Source: Kordiimonadaceae bacterium
GTDB taxonomy: Bacteria > Pseudomonadota > Alphaproteobacteria > Sphingomonadales > Kordiimonadaceae
DNA length: 64,000 nucleotides
Direction: 5' to 3'
NCBI GenBank assembly: GCA_017640725.1
Contig: JAEPQB010000001.1
Coordinates: 1,860,001 to 1,924,000, forward strand
Shown: positions 28,605-44,378 of the stretch, one piece after another
How the letters are laid out: each line of letters starts with the position of its first letter
Numbering within the stretch: the first letter of the stretch is position 1
The notes under the pieces: model-generated
Databases searched by the model: none
What the model saw: only the letters and a program-made list of their open reading frames with translations
What the model was told of the DNA's origin: nothing
Made by a program: the position numbers and the translations under genes

Positions 28605-31600
28605 ATGGCCGAAAAGAACCGCATGCACCCCATCCCCAAGCCGCCTGGCAAACCCGTCGTCGGCAATGTTTTTTCGGTAGATCCGGACGCACCACTACAA
28701 TCCTTGATGCAGCATGCTGAAGAGCAAGGGCCGATATTCTGGCTTGATCTGATGGGTGCGGAATCAGTTGTCGTTTCCGGCGCTGATCTGGTGAAAGAGC
28801 TCTGCGATGAAAGCCGATTTGGCAAAGTGGTTCGTGGTCCACTAAGGCGGGTGCGTGCAATCGGGGGTGATGGTCTTTTCACAGGCGATAGTGACGACCC
28901 AAATTGGTCCAAAGCGCACAATATTTTGATGCCAACCTTTAGCCAAAAGGCGATGGTGGAATATCTGCCGATGATGGTCGATATCGCTGACCAATTGATG
29001 ATGAAGTGGGAACGCCTGAACGCCGATGAAGAGATCGATGTCGTGCGCGATATGACTGGTCTGACGCTTGATACGATCGGTCTGTGCGGGTTTGATTATC
29101 GCTTCAATTCTTTCTACCGCGAAGACTTCCACCCTTTCATTGACGCACTGGCCCGTACGCTGGAAACCTGCATGCTGCAGCGCGGCTTACCGTTTGAAAA
29201 AGTGGCACTCAGAAACCGTATCAAAGACCTGGGTGATGATGTCGGCTTCATGAACAAGCTGGTGGATGACATAGTGCGCGAGCGTCGCCGAGGGGGCGGT
29301 GATCAGGCGCAAAAAGACCTACTCAATTTCATGCTCGCAGGGGTCGATAAAGTCACCGGTGAAAGCTTGTCAGATGAAAATATACGCTATCAGATCAACA
29401 CTTTCCTGATCGCAGGTCATGAGACCACATCGGGCCTGTTGTCTTTCACGCTTTATTATCTGCTGCAAAACCCGGACGTGCTGAAAAAAGCTTACGACGA
29501 GGTGGACGAAGTTCTCGGTAACAACATTGGCGTCGCACCGAACATTGCTCAGATTGGTCAGCTAGTATACACGCGTGCCATCCTGATGGAGGCGCTGCGC
29601 CTGTGGCCAACGGCACCCGCGTTTTCTCTTGCACCTTATGAAGATGAAATGATCGGCGGCAAGTATCCTATTAAAAAGGGTACTTTCATGACGGTTCTGA
29701 TCCCGTCGCTTCACCGTGACAAAGCCTATTGGGGCGAGGATCCGGAAAAGTTTAACCCGGACAACTTTATGCCAGAGGCAGAGGCCGCACGGCCTGATCA
29801 TGCCTACAAGCCATTTGGTAACGGCAAACGCGCCTGTATCGGCCGGCAGTTTGCCATCCAGGAAGCTGTTCTAGTTCTTGGCATGATTTTGCAGCGGTTC
29901 GACTTGTTTGATCACAAGCAATATAAGCTCAAGATCAAAGAAACACTGTCGCTCAAACCAGATGGCTTCACCATTAAAGTCAAAGTGCGTGACGGCGTCG
30001 TTCGGCAACCCATTGCAACGGAAGAGGCTGACGAAACCATGGGTGAAGAGGCCGCACGCAGGCCAAGCCATGGCACCAAGCTCACAGTTCTTTACGGATC
30101 TAACCTTGGCACAGCCGAGGGTTTCGCGCGGGACATTGCCCAGTCTGGGGACGTGAATGGGTTCGACACTGTTTTGGCGCCGCTTGATGATTATGTCGGC
30201 AAGCTGCCAACCGACGGTGTTGTTCTGATCGTATGTGCTTCCTACAACGGCTCGCCGCCTGACAATGCGATCGAATTTTGCAACTGGCTTGAAAGTGCAG
30301 ATGCTGGCTCGCTTGAGGATGTCACTTATTCTGTGTTCGGCTGCGGTAGCCGGGACTGGGCTTCAACGTTCCAAACCGTGCCACGTATGATAGACGACAA
30401 GCTCGCGCAGCTTGGCGCCATTTGTCTCACCGACCGCGGTGAAGCGGATGCGCGGGAAGATATGGATGGCCAATTCCACGGTTGGTTTGATCCATTGTTT
30501 GCAAAAGTGGGAGACAAGCTCGATCTCGGCATCGATTTCAGCAAGCCAGTAAATGCACAACCTCTCTACAAAGTTGAGATCGCCGAAAGCGTGACGGCGA
30601 ACCCCATAGCCATGCAGGCTGGAACGGTTGCCATGAAGGTGCTGGAAAACAGGGAACTGCAAAATCACGATGGGCCAAATCCATCAACGCGATCCACACG
30701 ACACATTGAAATTGAACTGCCTGAGGGCGAAAATTACGAGCCTGGTGATCATTTGTGTGTTGTGCCAATCAATGGACCAGAAAACGTGCAGCGGGCGTTG
30801 GCGCGATTTGGTTTTGATGACGAGACATACATTAAAGTTGACGTCACAGGGGGGCGGCGCAGCCCGTTCCCCAATGGCAGTACATTCTCCGTTAAGCGCT
30901 TGGCCGAAGTTTGCGGAGAGCTGCAGGCTGTCGCCAGCCGCAAAGACGTTGCGTTGCTGGCAGCGCACACGCGGTGCCCCGCCACAGGGCCAAAACTTGA
31001 AGCCTTGGCGGCCCCGGCGAAAGACGGCGAAGACCTTTACCGCAGCGAGGTTTTCCTGAAACGCAAATCGATCCTGGATCTGCTGGAAGAATTCCCGGCA
31101 TGCGAGTTGCCGTTTGAGGTTTTCCTAGAAATGGTGCCATGGCTGTCGCCGCGCTACTATTCGATTTCTTCTTCAGCCAAAGCGACACCGGGCCGTGTTT
31201 CCATCACTGTGGGGGTTGTGAAAGGTCCGGCGCTTTCTGGTAACGGCGAATATCACGGCGTTTGCTCCACGTTCCTGGAAGAATCTCAGCCGGGTGCAGA
31301 AATTCAGGCGAGTGTGCGCGAACCCTCTGCCAATTTCCGTTTACCGGATGATGCCACTAAGCCCATCATCATGATCGGACCGGGTACAGGCATTGCGCCT
31401 TTCCGGGCCTTTGTTCAGGAACGCAAAGCGCTCAAGGAAAATGGAGAAGAACTGGGCAAGGCGATGCTGTTCTTCGGTTGCCGCGACCCTGAGCAAGACT
31501 ATCTCTACCGCGACGAGCTGGAGACCGCGGCGACGGACGGCCTGATTGAATTACAAACAGCCTTCTCAAGAAGTGGGCCTGAGCGTGTTTATGTGCAGGA

Positions 31601-31820
31601 CCTGATCCGAAAGCAGGGCGGGGATGTTTGGCAGATGATCGAGGACGGTGCCATCATCTACATTTGCGGCGATGGGTCTGCGATGGAGCCGGATGTGAAA
31701 CGCACGCTTCTCTCGCTTTACGTGGAAGAAAATGACACGTCGCATGAAGCAGCGGAAGCCTGGATCGAAGACATGACCAAAACTGGTCGCTATGTGCTTG
31801 ATGTTTGGGCCGGTGGTTAA
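28605..31820 (+). CDS. Self-sufficient cytochrome P450-reductase fusion (CYP102/BM3-like)
   Basis: 1071 residues. The N-terminal P450 domain (about 1-470) has the oxygen-activating I-helix AGHETTS at 270-276, the ExxR motif at 329-332, and the heme-ligand Cys411 in FGNGKRACIGRQF. A flavodoxin-like FMN domain (LTVLYGSNLGTAEGFA) follows, then an FAD domain with RYYSISSS, then the NADPH domain with GPGTGIAPFRAFVQER, ending in DVWAGG as in BM3. One polypeptide therefore carries electrons from NADPH to heme. Relatives hydroxylate medium- and long-chain fatty acids near the chain end. GGAG lies upstream of the ATG. It begins a plus-strand run ending at 35359. Confidence 0.97.
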   Translation: MAEKNRMHPIPKPPGKPVVGNVFSVDPDAPLQSLMQHAEEQGPIFWLDLMGAESVVVSGADLVKELCDESRFGKVVRGPLRRVRAIGGDGLFTGDSDDPNWSKAHNILMPTFSQKAMVEYLPMMVDIADQLMMKWERLNADEEIDVVRDMTGLTLDTIGLCGFDYRFNSFYREDFHPFIDALARTLETCMLQRGLPFEKVALRNRIKDLGDDVGFMNKLVDDIVRERRRGGGDQAQKDLLNFMLAGVDKVTGESLSDENIRYQINTFLIAGHETTSGLLSFTLYYLLQNPDVLKKAYDEVDEVLGNNIGVAPNIAQIGQLVYTRAILMEALRLWPTAPAFSLAPYEDEMIGGKYPIKKGTFMTVLIPSLHRDKAYWGEDPEKFNPDNFMPEAEAARPDHAYKPFGNGKRACIGRQFAIQEAVLVLGMILQRFDLFDHKQYKLKIKETLSLKPDGFTIKVKVRDGVVRQPIATEEADETMGEEAARRPSHGTKLTVLYGSNLGTAEGFARDIAQSGDVNGFDTVLAPLDDYVGKLPTDGVVLIVCASYNGSPPDNAIEFCNWLESADAGSLEDVTYSVFGCGSRDWASTFQTVPRMIDDKLAQLGAICLTDRGEADAREDMDGQFHGWFDPLFAKVGDKLDLGIDFSKPVNAQPLYKVEIAESVTANPIAMQAGTVAMKVLENRELQNHDGPNPSTRSTRHIEIELPEGENYEPGDHLCVVPINGPENVQRALARFGFDDETYIKVDVTGGRRSPFPNGSTFSVKRLAEVCGELQAVASRKDVALLAAHTRCPATGPKLEALAAPAKDGEDLYRSEVFLKRKSILDLLEEFPACELPFEVFLEMVPWLSPRYYSISSSAKATPGRVSITVGVVKGPALSGNGEYHGVCSTFLEESQPGAEIQASVREPSANFRLPDDATKPIIMIGPGTGIAPFRAFVQERKALKENGEELGKAMLFFGCRDPEQDYLYRDELETAATDGLIELQTAFSRSGPERVYVQDLIRKQGGDVWQMIEDGAIIYICGDGSAMEPDVKRTLLSLYVEENDTSHEAAEAWIEDMTKTGRYVLDVWAGG

Positions 31821-32213: not shown

Positions 32214-32935
32214 TCGTCAGGCGCATGACGGACGCGATACGTACCCAAGACTGGGTTACTGTGGGTGTTGAACTTTTAATCGTCGTGTTTGGCATTCTGA
32301 TAGCTGTCGAAATCGACGACTGGAATGAAGACCGAAAAAACAGGTCGCTCGAACAACGGTATCTGCAACGTCTGCAAGCCGACATGCAAGGCACGCTTGA
32401 TGACTCTGTGGCATTCACAACCTGGAACGAACGGGTCATATCTGACCAGGAAGTTATTCTCTCTGCCCTAAAGAGCGGAAGTCTTGCTGAGAGCAATGCC
32501 ACTGCTTTCGATCGCGGCCTTGTGTTTTTGGGGGAAATCAATCCGCCTAAACGGCGGTGGGGGACTATTGAAGAACTCAAGTCGTCAGGCACTTTGGGCA
32601 TCATTCGCAACGTTGAACTGCGGTCGCAGATCGCTGCTGTTGAATCGGAGTATGAGCGTACATCGCAGATTATTGAGGACTTGAACCAACAACTCATATT
32701 GTTGCGACCTATTGTGCAGCCATACTTTGAGACAGTAGACTTTGAGCTCGCTCTGGTTCCGGATGTCAGGGTGAACCATGATTTTGAAGCGATGACAGCG
32801 GACCCGGCTGTTTACACGGCGATTTCCCATATTCAGCGTTTTTCCAGGACTGCCGTGATATTCAGGGAAGGGCACCTGGAACGAATTCAAGGCTTGCGGG
32901 ATAGTGTTGACCTTCTTCTGGAAAACAAAAAGTGA
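32210..32935 (+). CDS. DUF6090-like single-pass membrane protein (copy 1)
   Basis: 241 residues. A short cytosolic leader with RTQDWVTV is followed by one TM helix (GVELLIVVFGILIAVEI) and a DDWNEDR turn, then a helical extracytoplasmic domain. The middle carries EELKSSGTLGIIRN. It is a clear paralogue of the gene at 33917, which shares the NQEWATVAIEFLIVV leader and EELKSSG. The family name is from recognition and its function is unknown to me. It starts 4 bases inside the preceding gene and is separated from the hydrolase gene by 19 bases. Confidence 0.82.
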   Translation: MIVRRMTDAIRTQDWVTVGVELLIVVFGILIAVEIDDWNEDRKNRSLEQRYLQRLQADMQGTLDDSVAFTTWNERVISDQEVILSALKSGSLAESNATAFDRGLVFLGEINPPKRRWGTIEELKSSGTLGIIRNVELRSQIAAVESEYERTSQIIEDLNQQLILLRPIVQPYFETVDFELALVPDVRVNHDFEAMTADPAVYTAISHIQRFSRTAVIFREGHLERIQGLRDSVDLLLENKK

Positions 32936-32954
32936 TCAACGAGGAACCGTTATC

Positions 32955-33920
32955 ATGGTAGAGGCATTTTTGAGGCGCATCGTTTGCCGTTGTCGATTTG
33001 TCAGTCTGATCTTGCCCATATTTTTGGCTATGCCTGCTTCCGCAGACGCCCCAGCTTTCTGCGCTGAAATCCCTCGACCTGGTTGGTCCGCATTCGAAAA
33101 GCTAGGCGTCAGCAATGAATGGTTTCATGTCTACCGAATAGACGACGGCTTGTTTGCGATCACAGAGCCCTTTCAGTGGCAGGAGGTGATCAACTATCTG
33201 ATAGTTGGGGCAGACAAAGCACTGCTGTTTGACAGTGGTAACGGCATGGGTGACATCAAAGCCATTGTGGATCAAATCACAGCATTGCCTGTGACGGTTC
33301 TCGCAAGCCATAGCCACATCGACCATGTGGGTGGTCATTGGCAGTTTCAAACTATCCTGGCGCCTGATACCGCCTTCACGAATGACCGTGCCAAAGGCCG
33401 AGGCAATGCGTTTGTGCGCGAGGAAGCGAGCGCGATTGCCTTATGTAAAGGGCTGCCGGAAGGCGTCACAGAAGACAATCATCACACCAAACCTTTTGTG
33501 CCAACAGGCCGTGTGACAGACGGCAGCATGATTGAGCTTGGCGGCTTGGCGCTTGAGGTGCTCAGCATTCCTGGTCATACACCGGATAGCATTGCGCTTC
33601 TCGACCGCGCTAGCGGTCGCCTGTTCACAGGGGACAGTTACTACAAGGGGCCAATCTGGTTGTATTCGGCTGAAACTAACCTTGCCGCCTACCGCACATC
33701 CATAGCCCGGCTCGCCGCTCTTGTGCCCATTTTGAAGGCTGTGCACGGCGCGCACAATGAACCGTTCAGCGCGCCGGTTGAGCTTGAGAAAGTGCGAGAT
33801 GCGTTTGAGTTGGTATATTCGGGCAATCGGAAGCCAAACGCGGTTTCCGATACACAGGCACGCTATGACTTCGGCAGTTTTGGGCTTTTGATGCAAGCCA
33901 ATCATGAGGTGGAAAAATGA
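32955..33920 (+). CDS. Secreted metallo-beta-lactamase fold hydrolase
   Basis: 321 residues from the ATG at 32955, with GAGGAA 8 bases upstream; an in-frame start at 32904 lies in the preceding gene. A signal peptide (VSLILPIFLAMPASADA) directs it to the periplasm. The zinc-binding HSHIDH motif is at residues 119-124, the downstream His is in LSIPGHTPDS, and the bridging Asp is in RLFTGDSYY. It may hydrolyse a lactone, thioester, cyclic nucleotide or beta-lactam; nothing in the sequence decides among these. It sits between two paralogous DUF6090-like genes and overlaps the second by 4 bases. Confidence 0.93.
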   Translation: MVEAFLRRIVCRCRFVSLILPIFLAMPASADAPAFCAEIPRPGWSAFEKLGVSNEWFHVYRIDDGLFAITEPFQWQEVINYLIVGADKALLFDSGNGMGDIKAIVDQITALPVTVLASHSHIDHVGGHWQFQTILAPDTAFTNDRAKGRGNAFVREEASAIALCKGLPEGVTEDNHHTKPFVPTGRVTDGSMIELGGLALEVLSIPGHTPDSIALLDRASGRLFTGDSYYKGPIWLYSAETNLAAYRTSIARLAALVPILKAVHGAHNEPFSAPVELEKVRDAFELVYSGNRKPNAVSDTQARYDFGSFGLLMQANHEVEK

Positions 33921-36341: not shown

Positions 36342-38375
36342 ATGCGTATCATTGCTCTGGCTGCAGCTTTTGGATTGGTTGCTTGCTCTGCTGAGGTTGA
36401 GCAGGCGAACGACGAAGAGCAGCTTTCCGCCAACGTTTATCAAGCGGCTGATGGCTATGACCCGAACGACTATGTCGATAATTTCACGCTGCTGGATCAT
36501 GAAGGTAAAGCCCACGAGCTCTATTACTTTCAGGACTCCCCTGCGATCGTAGTGATGATCCAGGGCAATGGTTGCCCAATCGTCAGGAACGCCTGGGCGG
36601 ACTATAAAGCGGTAAAAGACGAGTTTTCTGATAAAGGTGTCCAGTTCTACATGCTGAACGCCAATAAGCAGGATAACCGCGAAAGACTTAAGACTGAGGC
36701 TGCTGAATTCTCGTACGATATTCCGATCCTGAAAGACGAAACGCAGCTGATTGCGGAAAGCCTGGGTGTGAAGCGAACAGCAGAAGTGCTGGTGATCTCT
36801 CCCGAGGATTGGAGCATCGTTTATCGTGGTCCGGTCAATGATCGTCTTGGGTACGGCGAACAGCGCTCTACTACGGACAACCATTATCTGGCTGAAGCGT
36901 TGAAAGCAGTATTAGCAGGCGAGCGACCAGAGACGCGTATTCGTCGATCCAAAGGTTGCATCGTCAATTTGCCTGAGACTGCCAAGCGCGCGGAGCATGC
37001 ACAAATCAGCTACAGCGAAACGATTGGCCCCATGCTGGAGAAAAATTGTGCCAGCTGTCACGAAGAGGGTGGCATCGCCCCTTGGGCCATGACTGGCTAT
37101 GATATGATTGAGGGTTTTGCCCCAATGATCAGGGAGGTTGTGCGCACGAAACGTATGCCACCATGGTCCGCGGACCCGCACATTGGTACGTTCAATAATG
37201 CACGTGGTTTGACAATCGAAGAACGCCAAACGCTGGTGCACTGGATTGAAGCTGGCGCACCGCGCGGTGAGGGGCCGGACCCCCTTGCCAGCCGGGTGAG
37301 TGACGCCACCGAATGGCCACTTGGTGAGCCGGACCTGATAGTCGAAGCGCCGGCGTTTGATGTGCCCGCGTCAGGCATTGTCGATTATCAATTCCCGACT
37401 GTTTTGAACCCGCTTGATCGTGATGTTTGGGTCAAGGCAGTGACGGTTGTGCCGGGTGATAAAACCGTGGTTCACCATGCATTGGTTGGTTCATCGGAGG
37501 AGGTGACCAAACCAGGCGAAGGCGATTACAGCGATGTTTTTGACAACTATCTGATTGGTTTTGTGCCGGGCGCTGAAAGCTATGTTTACCCTGAAGACAC
37601 GGGCGTGTTTGTTAAAGCGGGCGGCGAGTTCCGGTTCCAAATGCATTACACGACCTCTGGCCGCGCGACGACTGACCGCACCAAATTGGGTCTCTATTTT
37701 TATGATAAACCGCCCAAGCATCCGCTGAGGCAGCAAGTTGCGCTGAACTTGGCGCTTGGCATTCCGCCAAACAGTGTGGGTCATGAAGAAAAGGCCTACT
37801 TCGAGTTTGACCGCCCGGCGACCATCTACATGCTGTTTCCGCATTCTCATTACCGCGGCAAATCCAGCACGTTCGAGGTTGTTTACCCGGATGGCCGCGA
37901 AGAAACGATCCTTTCTGTGCCGGATTACGACTTCAACTGGCAGCATACATACAGCATGGAAGAGCCATTGAGCGTGCCCGCGGGCAGTCGACTAATTCAT
38001 CGCACTCAGTACGACAACACTGGTCGGAATATTTCCAACCCAAATCCCGAACGCACGGTACCGTGGGGTCTGCAATCCCATGATGAAATGCTCTACGGCA
38101 GTTTCATGTTCCGCTGGACCGAAGAAACGGCGGACAACATTCTCCATGACCCGTTGCAGTTTGATATTCGCCAGTTTTATGGGTTTGCTGATCGCAACAT
38201 GGACGGCAAGCTTGCCCGGCAGGAAATGTGGGGTCGTCTTGCCAAATCCTGGGATGAGGGCAACCTGAAGCAGGCTGATGCAGACGGTGACGGCGCTCTT
38301 TCGTTTGCTGAATACTATGGCATGACGCTCGCACGCATGAAGCGGGCCCAGGCAGCACAGCAAAAGTCTCGCTAA
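36342..38375 (+). CDS. Redoxin / cytochrome c / copper-monooxygenase-like / EF-hand fusion lipoprotein
   Basis: 677 residues. The signal ends in lipobox LVAC (Cys15). Residues about 45-195 form a thioredoxin-like redoxin domain with a lone Cys78 in NGCPIVRN. A c-type heme motif CASCH is at 236-240. Residues about 335-600 resemble the copper type II ascorbate-dependent monooxygenase fold, with candidate copper ligands HH378-379, H435 in MHYTT, and H501/H503 in PHSHYRGK. Two EF-hand loops with D617/N619/D621/E628 and D646/D648/D650/E657 close the protein. AGGAGG lies upstream of the ATG. It is probably a periplasmic, membrane-anchored redox protein; the copper assignment is inferred from fold resemblance. 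Confidence 0.85.
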   Translation: MRIIALAAAFGLVACSAEVEQANDEEQLSANVYQAADGYDPNDYVDNFTLLDHEGKAHELYYFQDSPAIVVMIQGNGCPIVRNAWADYKAVKDEFSDKGVQFYMLNANKQDNRERLKTEAAEFSYDIPILKDETQLIAESLGVKRTAEVLVISPEDWSIVYRGPVNDRLGYGEQRSTTDNHYLAEALKAVLAGERPETRIRRSKGCIVNLPETAKRAEHAQISYSETIGPMLEKNCASCHEEGGIAPWAMTGYDMIEGFAPMIREVVRTKRMPPWSADPHIGTFNNARGLTIEERQTLVHWIEAGAPRGEGPDPLASRVSDATEWPLGEPDLIVEAPAFDVPASGIVDYQFPTVLNPLDRDVWVKAVTVVPGDKTVVHHALVGSSEEVTKPGEGDYSDVFDNYLIGFVPGAESYVYPEDTGVFVKAGGEFRFQMHYTTSGRATTDRTKLGLYFYDKPPKHPLRQQVALNLALGIPPNSVGHEEKAYFEFDRPATIYMLFPHSHYRGKSSTFEVVYPDGREETILSVPDYDFNWQHTYSMEEPLSVPAGSRLIHRTQYDNTGRNISNPNPERTVPWGLQSHDEMLYGSFMFRWTEETADNILHDPLQFDIRQFYGFADRNMDGKLARQEMWGRLAKSWDEGNLKQADADGDGALSFAEYYGMTLARMKRAQAAQQKSR

Positions 38376-40839: not shown

Positions 40840-40961
40840 TGGGCTCCCTTCAATATTGGACGAGTCTAGTCACATGATTGATTGGTGCAAAACAGCTTTT
40901 TTTGATTTTGTGCCATGAAGTGCCTAAAGTTCATGACAAATTGGAAATGCTGGGGGAAAAG

Positions 40962-42971
40962 ATGACCAAAATCCATGTTGCGATTTTTGCACTCCTGATG
41001 GCTGCAGCGCCCGTTTCGTCTTACGCAGAAGACGATGGCAACGATGCTGTTCTTGATAAATTGCTTGGGGCGACCATTGTTCGGTCAGTCGAGATTTCCC
41101 CGGACGGAACACAGGTTGCTTTTCGCACCCATGAAAACGACTTTCACAACAACAAAGACATGGCGCAGCTGTTCGTGGTTCCAACTGATGGCAGCGCGCC
41201 TGCAAAACAACTGACCTTTGGCGAAGATTCTGTGAGCGAATTTGAATGGTCGGCTGACAGCTCTTACCTGGCCTTCAGGCGCGACAGTAAGCTTTTTTTC
41301 ATCAGCACCTCTGGCGGTGAACCTAAGGAATTGGATTTAGGCGTGCGTGGGGCGCGTGGATTTCAGTTTGCACCAGACGGAGGTGCCCTATTTTTCACTG
41401 CCGGAAAACAGGACCAAGACAAAATAGAAGCGCGGGAGCAGCGCTACGGCAAATACAATGTGGTGCGAGAGGACGGGAACTACCGCCATATCTGGCGCGC
41501 GGAAATCACTGGGCCGATGTCAATTGGCGACCCGGAACAGCTGACTTTTGGCCGCGACTTTACCGTGACGGGATACGCGGTGTCTCCTAACAGCGCACAA
41601 ATCGCATTTTCCACTTGGCCCAGTCCACATCTGGTCGATTTGCTAAAGGCCCGCATCTACATAATGGCGGCTGATGGCGAAGAGCCCAAATTGGTGGATG
41701 AAAGTTACGGCGGTAAATCAACACCGATTTGGCGAACAGATAGCGCCGCTCTGGCTTACACCAACGCAGTTGGTTTCCCAGACTATTCCGACATTGTGAT
41801 CAATGATTTGGATGGTGATATTCGAACCATCAAGATGCCGGACCATGACCCGGGACTGGTATCGTTCAGCGATGACCGGATTTTGTTCAGGGCAGGCGTG
41901 CGCACTGACTATGGCTTGTTCTCAATTAGATTGGATGGCGGTGCTATTTCGCGTCAGACGGAGCCTGATATCCATGCTTTTGGTCACTCCGTTAGCAAAG
42001 ATGGCAGAACGATCGCTTCCGTCGACTATTCTGGCGGAGGGTTGGCAGAAGTTGCAGTTGTCGCTGGCTATGACCGTAGCGTGCTCACGGATTTTGCGGA
42101 CCAACTTGAGGGTCTGCAACTGCCCAGCAAAGAGCTGATTACTTGGACCAATGACATGGGCCAGGAAATTGAGGGCGTGCTCACAAAGCCCGTTGGTTTT
42201 GAAGAGGGCAAGCAGTACCCCCTTTATGTGCGCACGCACGGAGGCCCAACCGGTACAGACAGGCCCATACTCGGCAGCGCTTCTCGCAGCATCTATTCCC
42301 CAGAAGTATTAGCGGCCGAGGGCGATGGTGCCCTTGTTTTGCAAACCAATTATCGTGGCAGTGCCAGTTATGGCAACCGGTTCCAGCGTAGCAACTTGAA
42401 ACAGTTGGGCATCGGCCCCGCCAAAGACATTATTGCTGGAGTGCAAATGCTTGTGGAAGCAGGCATGGTGGACCCAGACAAAGTGGCGTGTCTTGGCTGG
42501 AGCCAGGGTGGCCATATTTCGGCAATGCTCGCCACCTACTCCAACATTTGTACAGCGGCGATTATGGGTGCCGGCATTAGTGACTGGCGCACCTATTATT
42601 ACAATACCGATATCACCCAGTTCACGACCGAATACTTCGGTGGTACGCCGTACGGCAATGACCGTGTTTATGCCCGGACGTCGCCCGTTACCTACATCAA
42701 TAATGCCAAAACACCGGTCCTGATCCAGCACGGCGAGAATGATGCCCGTGTGCCGATCGCCAACGGTTACCAGTTGCGCCAGCTACTTCTTGATAAAGGC
42801 GTTAGTGCCCGCATGATCGTTTATGATGGCATGGGGCACGGACCGTCAAAACCCCGGCACCGTCGAGCGATTACGGAACATGCGCTTGATTGGTTCAGGG
42901 AGCATTTGTTTGGCGTTAGTCCTGCGGATTATGTGTTCCCAGTGCAGAATGGCACTGCCGAAGAAGACTAA
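40962..42971 (+). CDS. Secreted S9-family peptidase (prolyl oligopeptidase/DPP-like)
   Basis: 669 residues from the ATG at 40962, which follows GGGGGAAAAG; an upstream in-frame ATG at 40878 lacks one. A signal peptide (FALLMAAAPVSSYA) exports it. An N-terminal beta-propeller (repeats such as FEWSADSSYLAFRRD and FAPDGGALFFTAG) precedes the alpha/beta hydrolase domain: nucleophile Ser in GWSQGGHI, Asp in HGENDARVPI, and His in GMGHGPSKPRH. It cleaves short peptides. YjiH follows 39 bases downstream, perhaps in the same unit. Confidence 0.95.
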   Translation: MTKIHVAIFALLMAAAPVSSYAEDDGNDAVLDKLLGATIVRSVEISPDGTQVAFRTHENDFHNNKDMAQLFVVPTDGSAPAKQLTFGEDSVSEFEWSADSSYLAFRRDSKLFFISTSGGEPKELDLGVRGARGFQFAPDGGALFFTAGKQDQDKIEAREQRYGKYNVVREDGNYRHIWRAEITGPMSIGDPEQLTFGRDFTVTGYAVSPNSAQIAFSTWPSPHLVDLLKARIYIMAADGEEPKLVDESYGGKSTPIWRTDSAALAYTNAVGFPDYSDIVINDLDGDIRTIKMPDHDPGLVSFSDDRILFRAGVRTDYGLFSIRLDGGAISRQTEPDIHAFGHSVSKDGRTIASVDYSGGGLAEVAVVAGYDRSVLTDFADQLEGLQLPSKELITWTNDMGQEIEGVLTKPVGFEEGKQYPLYVRTHGGPTGTDRPILGSASRSIYSPEVLAAEGDGALVLQTNYRGSASYGNRFQRSNLKQLGIGPAKDIIAGVQMLVEAGMVDPDKVACLGWSQGGHISAMLATYSNICTAAIMGAGISDWRTYYYNTDITQFTTEYFGGTPYGNDRVYARTSPVTYINNAKTPVLIQHGENDARVPIANGYQLRQLLLDKGVSARMIVYDGMGHGPSKPRHRRAITEHALDWFREHLFGVSPADYVFPVQNGTAEED

Positions 42972-43010
42972 CCAGACTCACACCCATAATTGCGAACCCA
43001 GGGGGACTAA

Positions 43011-44378
43011 ATGAACACTTCTGATCAAGCCGCAATCGAAACGCGAGGATTGCAGCCGTTTTTGAGGTTTTTGATACCGTCACTCCTGGGCGTGGTGCTT
43101 TTTCTCGTGCCTTTCCGCACCGATGAAGGGGTTACGATCCTGTTCGGGATTTATTCCGATTGGATGCAACGCACGCTGGGTGAAATCCTGCTTGATTTTG
43201 TGGTTTGGGTCACTGTCGCGGGTGCGTTAACGGGCGCCCTTTTCATTGCCCTCAAACCTGATTGGAAAGAAAGCCGACCCTTTCTGCATGCCATTGCGGA
43301 ATGTACACCTGGATGGTTGCTGCTGCGCATCGTTGGCGCCGTGTTCGGATTGATGGTCCTGTTTGAAGTTGGTCCAGAAGTTGTGCGCTTGGAAGATACT
43401 GGTATTGCCATGTTCAAAGACGTTGGCATTGCTTTCACAATTGTATTGTTCCCTGCTTGTTTTTTAATGCCACTCCTAACTGAATTTGGCGCGATGGAGT
43501 TTTTCGGCACGTTCGTGGCACCGGCATTTCGAAAGCTGTTTTTGCTTCCTGGACGATCTGCGGTGGACGCAACAGCGTCTTTCATTTCTTCCTCAAATAT
43601 CGGCGTTTTGGTTACGGGACAGCAGTATCGTAGGGGGTTCTATACAGGCAGAGAGGGCGCTGTAATCGCAACGAATTTTTCGGTTGTGTCCCTGCCTTTT
43701 GCCCTTGTGATTGCCGATGTAAGTGGTCTGGCCCATATGTTCTTTCCCTGGTATCTGACCGGCATTGTGGCATGTATTCTGTGCGCAATCATTACGCCGC
43801 GATTGCCGCCGCTTTCAAACATTCAAGATAGTTATAAAGATGGCATTGATCGCAGCCACGAGCATGATGCACCAGAGGATGAACCGCTTTTGAGGCGCAG
43901 CTATGATGCGGCCATCATTTCGGCGGCAAAAGCACCCAACCCCAAGGAGCTTGCGCGCTCCGGGACACAGATGTTTCTTGAGCAGCTGATGGGCGTTACA
44001 GGCCCGATGATGGCGCTTGCAACAACAGCAGCCATTCTTGCATTCCACTACCCCATTGGTGAGTGGATTGGCGCCCCGTTTGCCGCCCTGTTGTCCCTGT
44101 TTGATGTGGAGCAGGCGCCGCGCGTTGGTATTGGGTTTATTTTTGGGTTCATTGACCAATTTATTCCAGCAGTAATTGCTGGAGACCTTCAGGATGAAGC
44201 CATTAGGTTCATCCTTGCAGGACTCTCTTTGTGTCAGCTGATTTATATGTCGGAAACTGGCCTGGTGATGCTGCGAGTTGGATTGCCCATCAACGCCTGG
44301 CAACTGTTTCTGGTGTTTTTGATCCGCACGATCATTGTGGTGCCGGTGCTCGTCGCGGCGGCGATGATATTGTTTTAA
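43011..44378 (+). CDS. YjiH-type membrane protein with Gate domain
   Basis: 455 residues, about ten to eleven TM segments. The N-terminal PFLRFLIPSLLGVVLFLVPF block and the nucleoside-recognition (Gate) domain (MGVTGPMMALATTAAILAF and IAGDLQDEAIRFILAGLSLC) fit the YjiH family. The substrate is unknown. CAGGGGG lies upstream of the ATG. It follows the S9 peptidase gene closely, so uptake of peptide-derived products is a possible but unproven role. It converges with the cupin gene with 3 bases between the stops. Confidence 0.9.
   Translation: MNTSDQAAIETRGLQPFLRFLIPSLLGVVLFLVPFRTDEGVTILFGIYSDWMQRTLGEILLDFVVWVTVAGALTGALFIALKPDWKESRPFLHAIAECTPGWLLLRIVGAVFGLMVLFEVGPEVVRLEDTGIAMFKDVGIAFTIVLFPACFLMPLLTEFGAMEFFGTFVAPAFRKLFLLPGRSAVDATASFISSSNIGVLVTGQQYRRGFYTGREGAVIATNFSVVSLPFALVIADVSGLAHMFFPWYLTGIVACILCAIITPRLPPLSNIQDSYKDGIDRSHEHDAPEDEPLLRRSYDAAIISAAKAPNPKELARSGTQMFLEQLMGVTGPMMALATTAAILAFHYPIGEWIGAPFAALLSLFDVEQAPRVGIGFIFGFIDQFIPAVIAGDLQDEAIRFILAGLSLCQLIYMSETGLVMLRVGLPINAWQLFLVFLIRTIIVVPVLVAAAMILF

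Follow-up and report, generated by a model that had tools for sequence, protein, structure and literature searches.

A predicted bacterial lipoprotein couples a c-type heme domain to a PHM/DBH-like copper core: a candidate family of self-wired dicopper monooxygenases

Noradrenaline and amidated hormones are made in animals by enzymes built around a copper core of the PHM/DBM kind, with two copper sites, CuH and CuM. For DBH, the structure paper assigns electron transfer to CuH and the binding of O2 and substrate to CuM, with two electrons taken from ascorbate, and it calls the crossing of electrons between the two coppers of PHM/DBM, which lie more than 10 Å apart, hard to explain (PMC4846438). 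The same source describes DBH as having a DOMON domain that lacks heme ligands, a dimerisation domain, and disulfides in each of its two copper domains (PMC4846438). The table of a 2020 review places PHM and DBM under eukaryotes only (PMC7435645).

Here, we describe a bacterial protein whose predicted core is the copper core of these animal enzymes. Its gene lies in a stretch of 64,000 nucleotides from a Kordiimonadaceae bacterium (assembly GCA_017640725.1, contig JAEPQB010000001.1), called the window below (Table 1). Like human DBH (4zel), the protein has a predicted double jelly-roll copper core with five His that a profile aligns with the copper His of DBH, a Met at the place of the sixth ligand, and an additional domain preceding the core, but it differs from DBH by a c-type heme domain, a core free of Cys, and the addition of a redoxin and EF-hands. 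With rat PHM (1phm, 1sdw), it shares the fold and the copper-ligand pattern, whereas it has a fused heme domain and the residues that we take to bind the substrate carboxylate in PHM are not kept. From structure models and conserved residues, we think it fairly probable that this putative lipoprotein faces the periplasm and acts on C-H bonds as a dicopper monooxygenase like PHM and DBM, supplied with electrons by its own c-type heme instead of ascorbate. Among the matches listed for the open-access literature, none dealt with a bacterial PHM fused to a heme or a redoxin; the family apparently is undescribed, which we say provisionally because our search covered open-access papers and public databases may already show the heme-copper architecture.

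Table 1. Features of the gene and its product (positions are those of the window).
Feature	Residues	Coordinates	Strand	Basis
Whole gene	677 aa plus stop	36342..38375	+	Intact ORF; full-length relatives (71-82% identity) from Kordiimonas-like genomes
Signal peptide with lipobox LVAC	LVAC 12-15	36342..36386	+	Sequence; C15 putative lipid-modified Cys
Redoxin domain	40-212	36459..36977	+	PF00578, E 4.4e-13; C78, C206 conserved
c-type heme domain	213-318; CASCH 236-240, RMPPW 271-275	36978..37295	+	CASCH 37047-37061; presumed axial Met in RMPPW 37152-37166
PHM/DBH-like double jelly roll	322-600	37305..38141	+	Profile match to DBH 4zel; VIA Z 20.3 (1phm), 22.0 (4zel_A)
Predicted CuH ligands H378, H379	HH 378/379	37473..37478	+	111/111; align with DBH His262/His263
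Predicted CuH ligand H435 in QMHY	QMHY 433-436	37644..37646	+	111/111; aligns with DBH His333
Predicted CuM ligands H501, H503 in PHSHYRG	PHSHYRG 500-506	37842..37850	+	111/111; align with DBH His412/His414
Family signature YDFNWQ		37926..37943	+	W533, Q534 invariant, 111/111
Predicted CuM ligand M583 in DEM	DEM 581-583	38088..38090	+	110/110 reaching the column; L113 ends earlier
EF-hand loop 1, DRNMDGKLARQE	617-628	38190..38225	+	Canonical 12-residue loop; flanked in the model by helices 604-616 and 631-638
EF-hand loop 2, DADGDGALSFAE	646-657	38277..38312	+	Canonical 12-residue loop; EF-hand_5 below cut-off; helix 655-675

An intact gene for a predicted lipoprotein with a redoxin

A preliminary description of this DNA had noted a lipobox, a redoxin, CASCH, a copper-monooxygenase-like region and two EF-hand loops in one protein, and we find a real gene with all of these modules. 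The open reading frame is intact in relatives too, the nearest of which among named genomes are loci of Kordiimonas. Full-length copies are carried by seven of the 18 same-genus and two of the 10 same-family genomes that we examined and by none of the 30 same-order genomes. When the gene was compared with that of locus L010 over 674 codons, first, second and third codon positions differed at 95, 64 and 379 sites, a pattern which indicates that the protein is under selection.

Redoxin families alone exceeded their cut-offs in a Pfam scan of the whole protein (AhpC-TSA, PF00578, at 49.7 bits versus a cut-off of 26). Cytochrome_CBB3 (E 0.0078) and EF-hand_5 (E 2.8e-4) stayed below theirs, and the NCBIfam scan of P0001 gave no model over cut-off. 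For the 22 rows of our A1 alignment, the NCBIfam models listed were of redoxin/peroxidase, alpha/beta-hydrolase, deiodinase-related and LanM type, with none for the heme-copper unit. The protein contains five Cys (15, 78, 206, 236 and 239), each of which can be given one putative role, i.e., C15 as lipid anchor, C78 and C206 as a redox pair, and C236 and C239 as heme thioethers. All nine Kordiimonas-type rows of A1, including that of the window, have a Cys at position 15 or 16, and the first 45 residues of L008, L011, L012 and L014 contain none. The motif is consistent with the proposed envelope lipoprotein for the Kordiimonas-type proteins.

The N-terminal domain is predicted to be an AhpC/TSA-type redoxin with a thioredoxin fold and conserved redox Cys, and its AlphaFold2 model matches 3u5r_E over residues 39-213 with a VIA Z of 21.9. 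It had been called a lone-Cys redoxin, which is wrong because C206 is as conserved as C78 (both invariant, 22/22 in A1). In a larger set of 70 rows, both Cys are kept in 65 of the 66 redoxin-matched ones; this recount left out L041 and L080, where no redoxin was matched and the letters at the Cys columns are alignment artefacts. Both Cys are lost in L047, where Asp and Ala stand instead. The thiol-disulfide isomerase-like redoxins 2cvb, 2ywi and 3u5r resemble residues 38-215 (Z 21.8-21.9, 26-29% identity) and match both Cys in their alignments, but their chains of 183-218 residues consist of the redoxin alone, unlike the fused protein described here. A Thermus relative, 2ywo, is titled as a reduced-state structure, which hints by analogy at a redox pair in this domain that C78 and C206 might form. 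L013 and L014 have a shortened redoxin with an altered C78 motif (GGCEAF and LACPSF, respectively) and intact heme and copper ligands.

Predicted copper core, heme domain and EF-hand tail

Models of the middle region show a double jelly roll with CuH and CuM domains as in PHM/DBM. For an AlphaFold2 model of the protein built from 21 sequences (pLDDT 78.8, pTM 0.71), the best Foldseek matches were PHM (E 2.8e-14) and human DBH (E 1.1e-13). VIA aligned 290 residues of the whole model with 4zel_A (rmsd 4.4) and 267 residues between 322 and 622 with 1phm (rmsd 3.5), while other listed PHM entries gave a Z of 16.7-20.5. A second AlphaFold2 model limited to residues 213-600 (pLDDT 80.0, pTM 0.78) reached a Z of up to 21.9 with PHM versus at most 8.7 with PNGase F-type and other non-PHM folds. 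The preliminary description had set PHM-like folding of this region as a check on its proposal, and the best Z of 20-22 versus 8.7 bears it out in silico.

Profile comparison led independently to DBH. With an E limit of 10, our profile A3 of the PHM region matched DBH alone among PDB entries (1.8e-5) and placed HH, QMHY and PHxH on the five copper-binding His of DBH; the copper region searched as a single sequence (residues 333-587) gave no match up to E = 10. M583 lies outside this alignment and was placed by the DEM motif, which we take to be the CuM Met site of PHM. The DBH residue numbers of the ligands follow the structure paper (PMC4846438), with 39 added to the printed chain positions to fit them. 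These assignments give a predicted CuH site of three His and a predicted CuM site of two His and a Met. Of the curated models, Cu2_monoox_C scores 21.4 bits for the whole protein and 23.6 bits for the region alone (cut-off 23), and the N-terminal Cu2_monooxygen domain matches one of 22 members at E ≤ 0.01. The core of the window protein contains no Cys.

Conservation was assessed in an alignment of 111 sequences from Alphaproteobacteria, Gammaproteobacteria and Planctomycetota that includes the window protein and omits L108 (frame change between the heme part and the rest) and L141 (running off its contig). The heme residues C236, C239, H240, M272, P273 and P274 are invariant in all 111 sequences, as is the spacing of 36 residues from the CxxCH to the Met, and 138-152 residues separate the CxxCH from the HH pair. 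A Gln stands two residues before H435 in 94/111. Such invariance of heme and copper ligands means that the modules are not there by chance. A CxxCH with a distal Met suggests a c-type cytochrome domain of class I. The AlphaFold2 confidence of this domain is middling (50-79 per block, in a model without heme). With the heme and copper model, VIA listed PHM/DBH plus other jelly-roll chains and no cytochrome for residues 213-318, which is uninformative either way. A sequence profile of the heme region weakly matched hydrazine synthase alpha (1.8e-4 for the whole sequence, 0.47 for the best stretch), and PF01578, a family of cytochrome c assembly proteins, is matched twice in the genome.

The C-terminal tail holds two loops of the form D-x-D/N-x-D-G-x-hydrophobic-x-x-x-E that lie between helices in the model and are predicted EF-hand sites. 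At least two such loops occur in 38 of 56 family tails of at least 60 residues, compared with 0.02% of 11,200 shuffled tails (3.3% hold at least one). With calmodulin-type EF-hand pairs, the region shares two canonical 12-residue loops, but unlike these pairs and lanmodulin it is a short C-terminal tail under curated cut-offs. Lanmodulin itself was rejected, as the NCBIfam LanM model scores 23.5 bits over the tail versus a cut-off of 135. Across the family, the tail was found in about 41/114 ORFs (42 by pattern, less a false match to the repeat tail of L126) and therefore looks like an accessory. The loops are canonical, but the calcium control suggested earlier is speculative. On a quick tree of 73 rows, 30 carry the EF label (31 before removal of L104, a false positive with a 20-residue tail), and the label requires at least six changes, one of which stems from L104 and four of which are forced by well-supported branches; L041, L038 and L096 form long branches. 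The label is found in three separated groups, i.e., the Pseudomonadota clade with the window (16/16 rows) and two groups of Planctomycetota (9/11 and 5/6), implying repeated gain or loss.

A family with a fixed heme-copper unit

The profile A3 covers the copper region and contains no heme columns. Even so, 85 of 87 further ORFs found with it have, immediately before the copper region, a heme CxxCH followed by a correctly spaced MPP; the other two are L108, whose heme part lies in a second frame, and L141, cut by the contig end. Overall, the heme domain directly precedes the copper core in 112 of 114 unique ORFs. The redoxin is N-terminal in 82 of these 114 (L108 among them), C-terminal in two (L122 and L128) and unmatched in 30, including the cut L141. 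Since the heme is kept while redoxin, EF-hand and other tails vary, the heme and dicopper core, as far as sequence can tell, is the fixed unit of the family and the remaining parts are interchangeable. The redoxin C-terminal to the copper core in L122 and L128 shows domain shuffling; there it shares the tail with a pair of EF-hands. Tails read from sequence as TPR-like, without a redoxin match, occur in L110, L111, L117, L118, L123, L125 and L126, and one member, identified as L015 by its length, has an esterase-type domain as its tail. In L108, from Planctomycetota, the family gene is split, with its heme part in one frame and the remainder of the copper core in another.

We consider it slightly more likely than not that these proteins are self-wired dicopper monooxygenases and form a large family in bacteria, in which a PHM/DBM core is near-obligately fused to a c-type heme that feeds CuH in place of ascorbate and accessories are interchangeable (redoxin at either end, EF-hands, TPR-like repeats or an esterase). 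Of the two phyla sampled, Planctomycetota had matches in 82/199 genomes at E ≤ 1e-20, centre included, and our Planctomycetota sample comprises 29 new loci from the best matches and 40 lower-ranking ones. One Planctomycetota genome has 11 matches, which suggests that substrates have diversified within the family. For Pseudomonadota, 8/398 genomes matched at 1e-30: the window's own, G577 with two copies, G425 with heme and copper parts only, and five with the redoxin only. The counts were 3/289 for Alphaproteobacteria at 1e-30 (the window's own, G316, which matched over a long stretch, and G070, which matched by the redoxin only) and 4/274 for Gammaproteobacteria, centre included. Transfer into Kordiimonas from a gammaproteobacterial branch would fit the tree. 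PF03712 was abandoned as a genome probe in favor of the family's own profile: it found 0/60 genomes and 0/14 controls, and it is uninformative because it misses G577 despite two family members there.

Candidate mechanism, competing readings and neighborhood

In the mechanism that we propose, the heme would take single electrons from periplasmic carriers and pass them to CuH, which would hand them on to CuM, where O2 and substrate would bind, so that the fused heme would stand in for ascorbate. An order of heme to CuH to CuM is the most economical reading of a heme that precedes the CuH domain at a nearly fixed spacing. The earlier idea of an electron-transfer oxygenase thereby gains strong in-silico support from the modeled PHM/DBH fold, the kept ligands, and the heme in front of the core. 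The C78/C206 pair of the redoxin would probably supply or remove reducing equivalents or else shield the site from peroxide, a role that is a guess because 29/112 heme-bearing ORFs have no redoxin match. The EF-hand pair would bind Ca2+ and stabilize or position the tail.

Other uses of the same parts are conceivable. A PHM-like fold could serve something other than oxygenation, e.g., electron storage by copper and heme, removal of peroxide or NO, or copper handling, with the redoxin as peroxidase or copper chaperone. We regard this as unlikely, although the redoxin resembles AhpC/TSA and ResA-like proteins and no linked substrate gene was seen among the neighbors examined: the split into three His at CuH and two His plus Met at CuM is exceptionless in the rows that reach it, and the redoxin is optional and, in L047, without either Cys. 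The prominence of the redoxin in the Pfam scan might also suggest that the protein is mainly a thiol-disulfide or peroxidase lipoprotein with the remaining modules as structural parts. However, the redoxin is unmatched or C-terminal in 31/112 heme-bearing ORFs, while heme and copper ligands persist, and we regard this reading as very improbable.

An actual peptidylglycine hydroxylase, which would alpha-hydroxylate the C-terminal glycine of peptides and be tied to peptide use, seems very improbable to us. It could draw on an S9 peptidase and a Gate-domain protein encoded downstream in the window, L001, L002 and L010, but this linkage is absent from L003-L007 within the flanks examined, and the Pfam scan of the protein shows no lyase domain. 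In rat PHM, the substrate carboxylate site presumably consists of Arg240, two residues before the first CuM His, and Tyr318, whose places we equated by offset from the copper ligands with residues 499 and 587. At the former, the window protein has Phe and none of the 111 sequences has Arg, making peptide amidation unlikely; at the latter, 35/111 relatives have the Tyr, but the window protein has Ser. This carboxylate site appears not to be preserved, and the substrate is probably not a glycine-extended peptide. If the protein is instead the heme-fed monooxygenase that we favor, it would add a PHM/DBM-type oxygenase to the bacteria, which have none in the table of the 2020 review (PMC7435645), and open a pool of such oxygenases in Planctomycetota. 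As a natural heme fusion with a redox state visible by absorbance, it would also allow direct timing of CuH reduction.

The neighborhood was compared for 13 window genes versus 21 loci, with Pfam scans of ten window proteins and of 20 chosen neighbors from 12 relatives. Neither a conserved operon nor a substrate gene common to all was found among the neighbors compared, and an operon reading was rejected, since L001, L002 and L010 alone share the upstream gene of the 34703 type together with the S9 peptidase and Gate protein found downstream. In the window, the latter two occupy 40878-44378 (+) as an S9 prolyl oligopeptidase-like protein followed by a Gate-domain membrane protein; the former scores 143.6 bits of 400 against the lasso peptide isopeptidase model. 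At the Pirellulaceae-type loci L017 and L018, an MMPL/sterol-sensing-type exporter lies directly downstream. Upstream in the window, 32904-33920 (+) encodes a metallo-beta-lactamase-fold protein with a SoxH-related quinoprotein relay hydrolase as best NCBIfam model, far below cut-off, and the 1071-aa product of 28605-31820 (+) joins a P450 to flavodoxin, FAD and NAD-binding reductase domains in a self-sufficient, CYP102-like layout.
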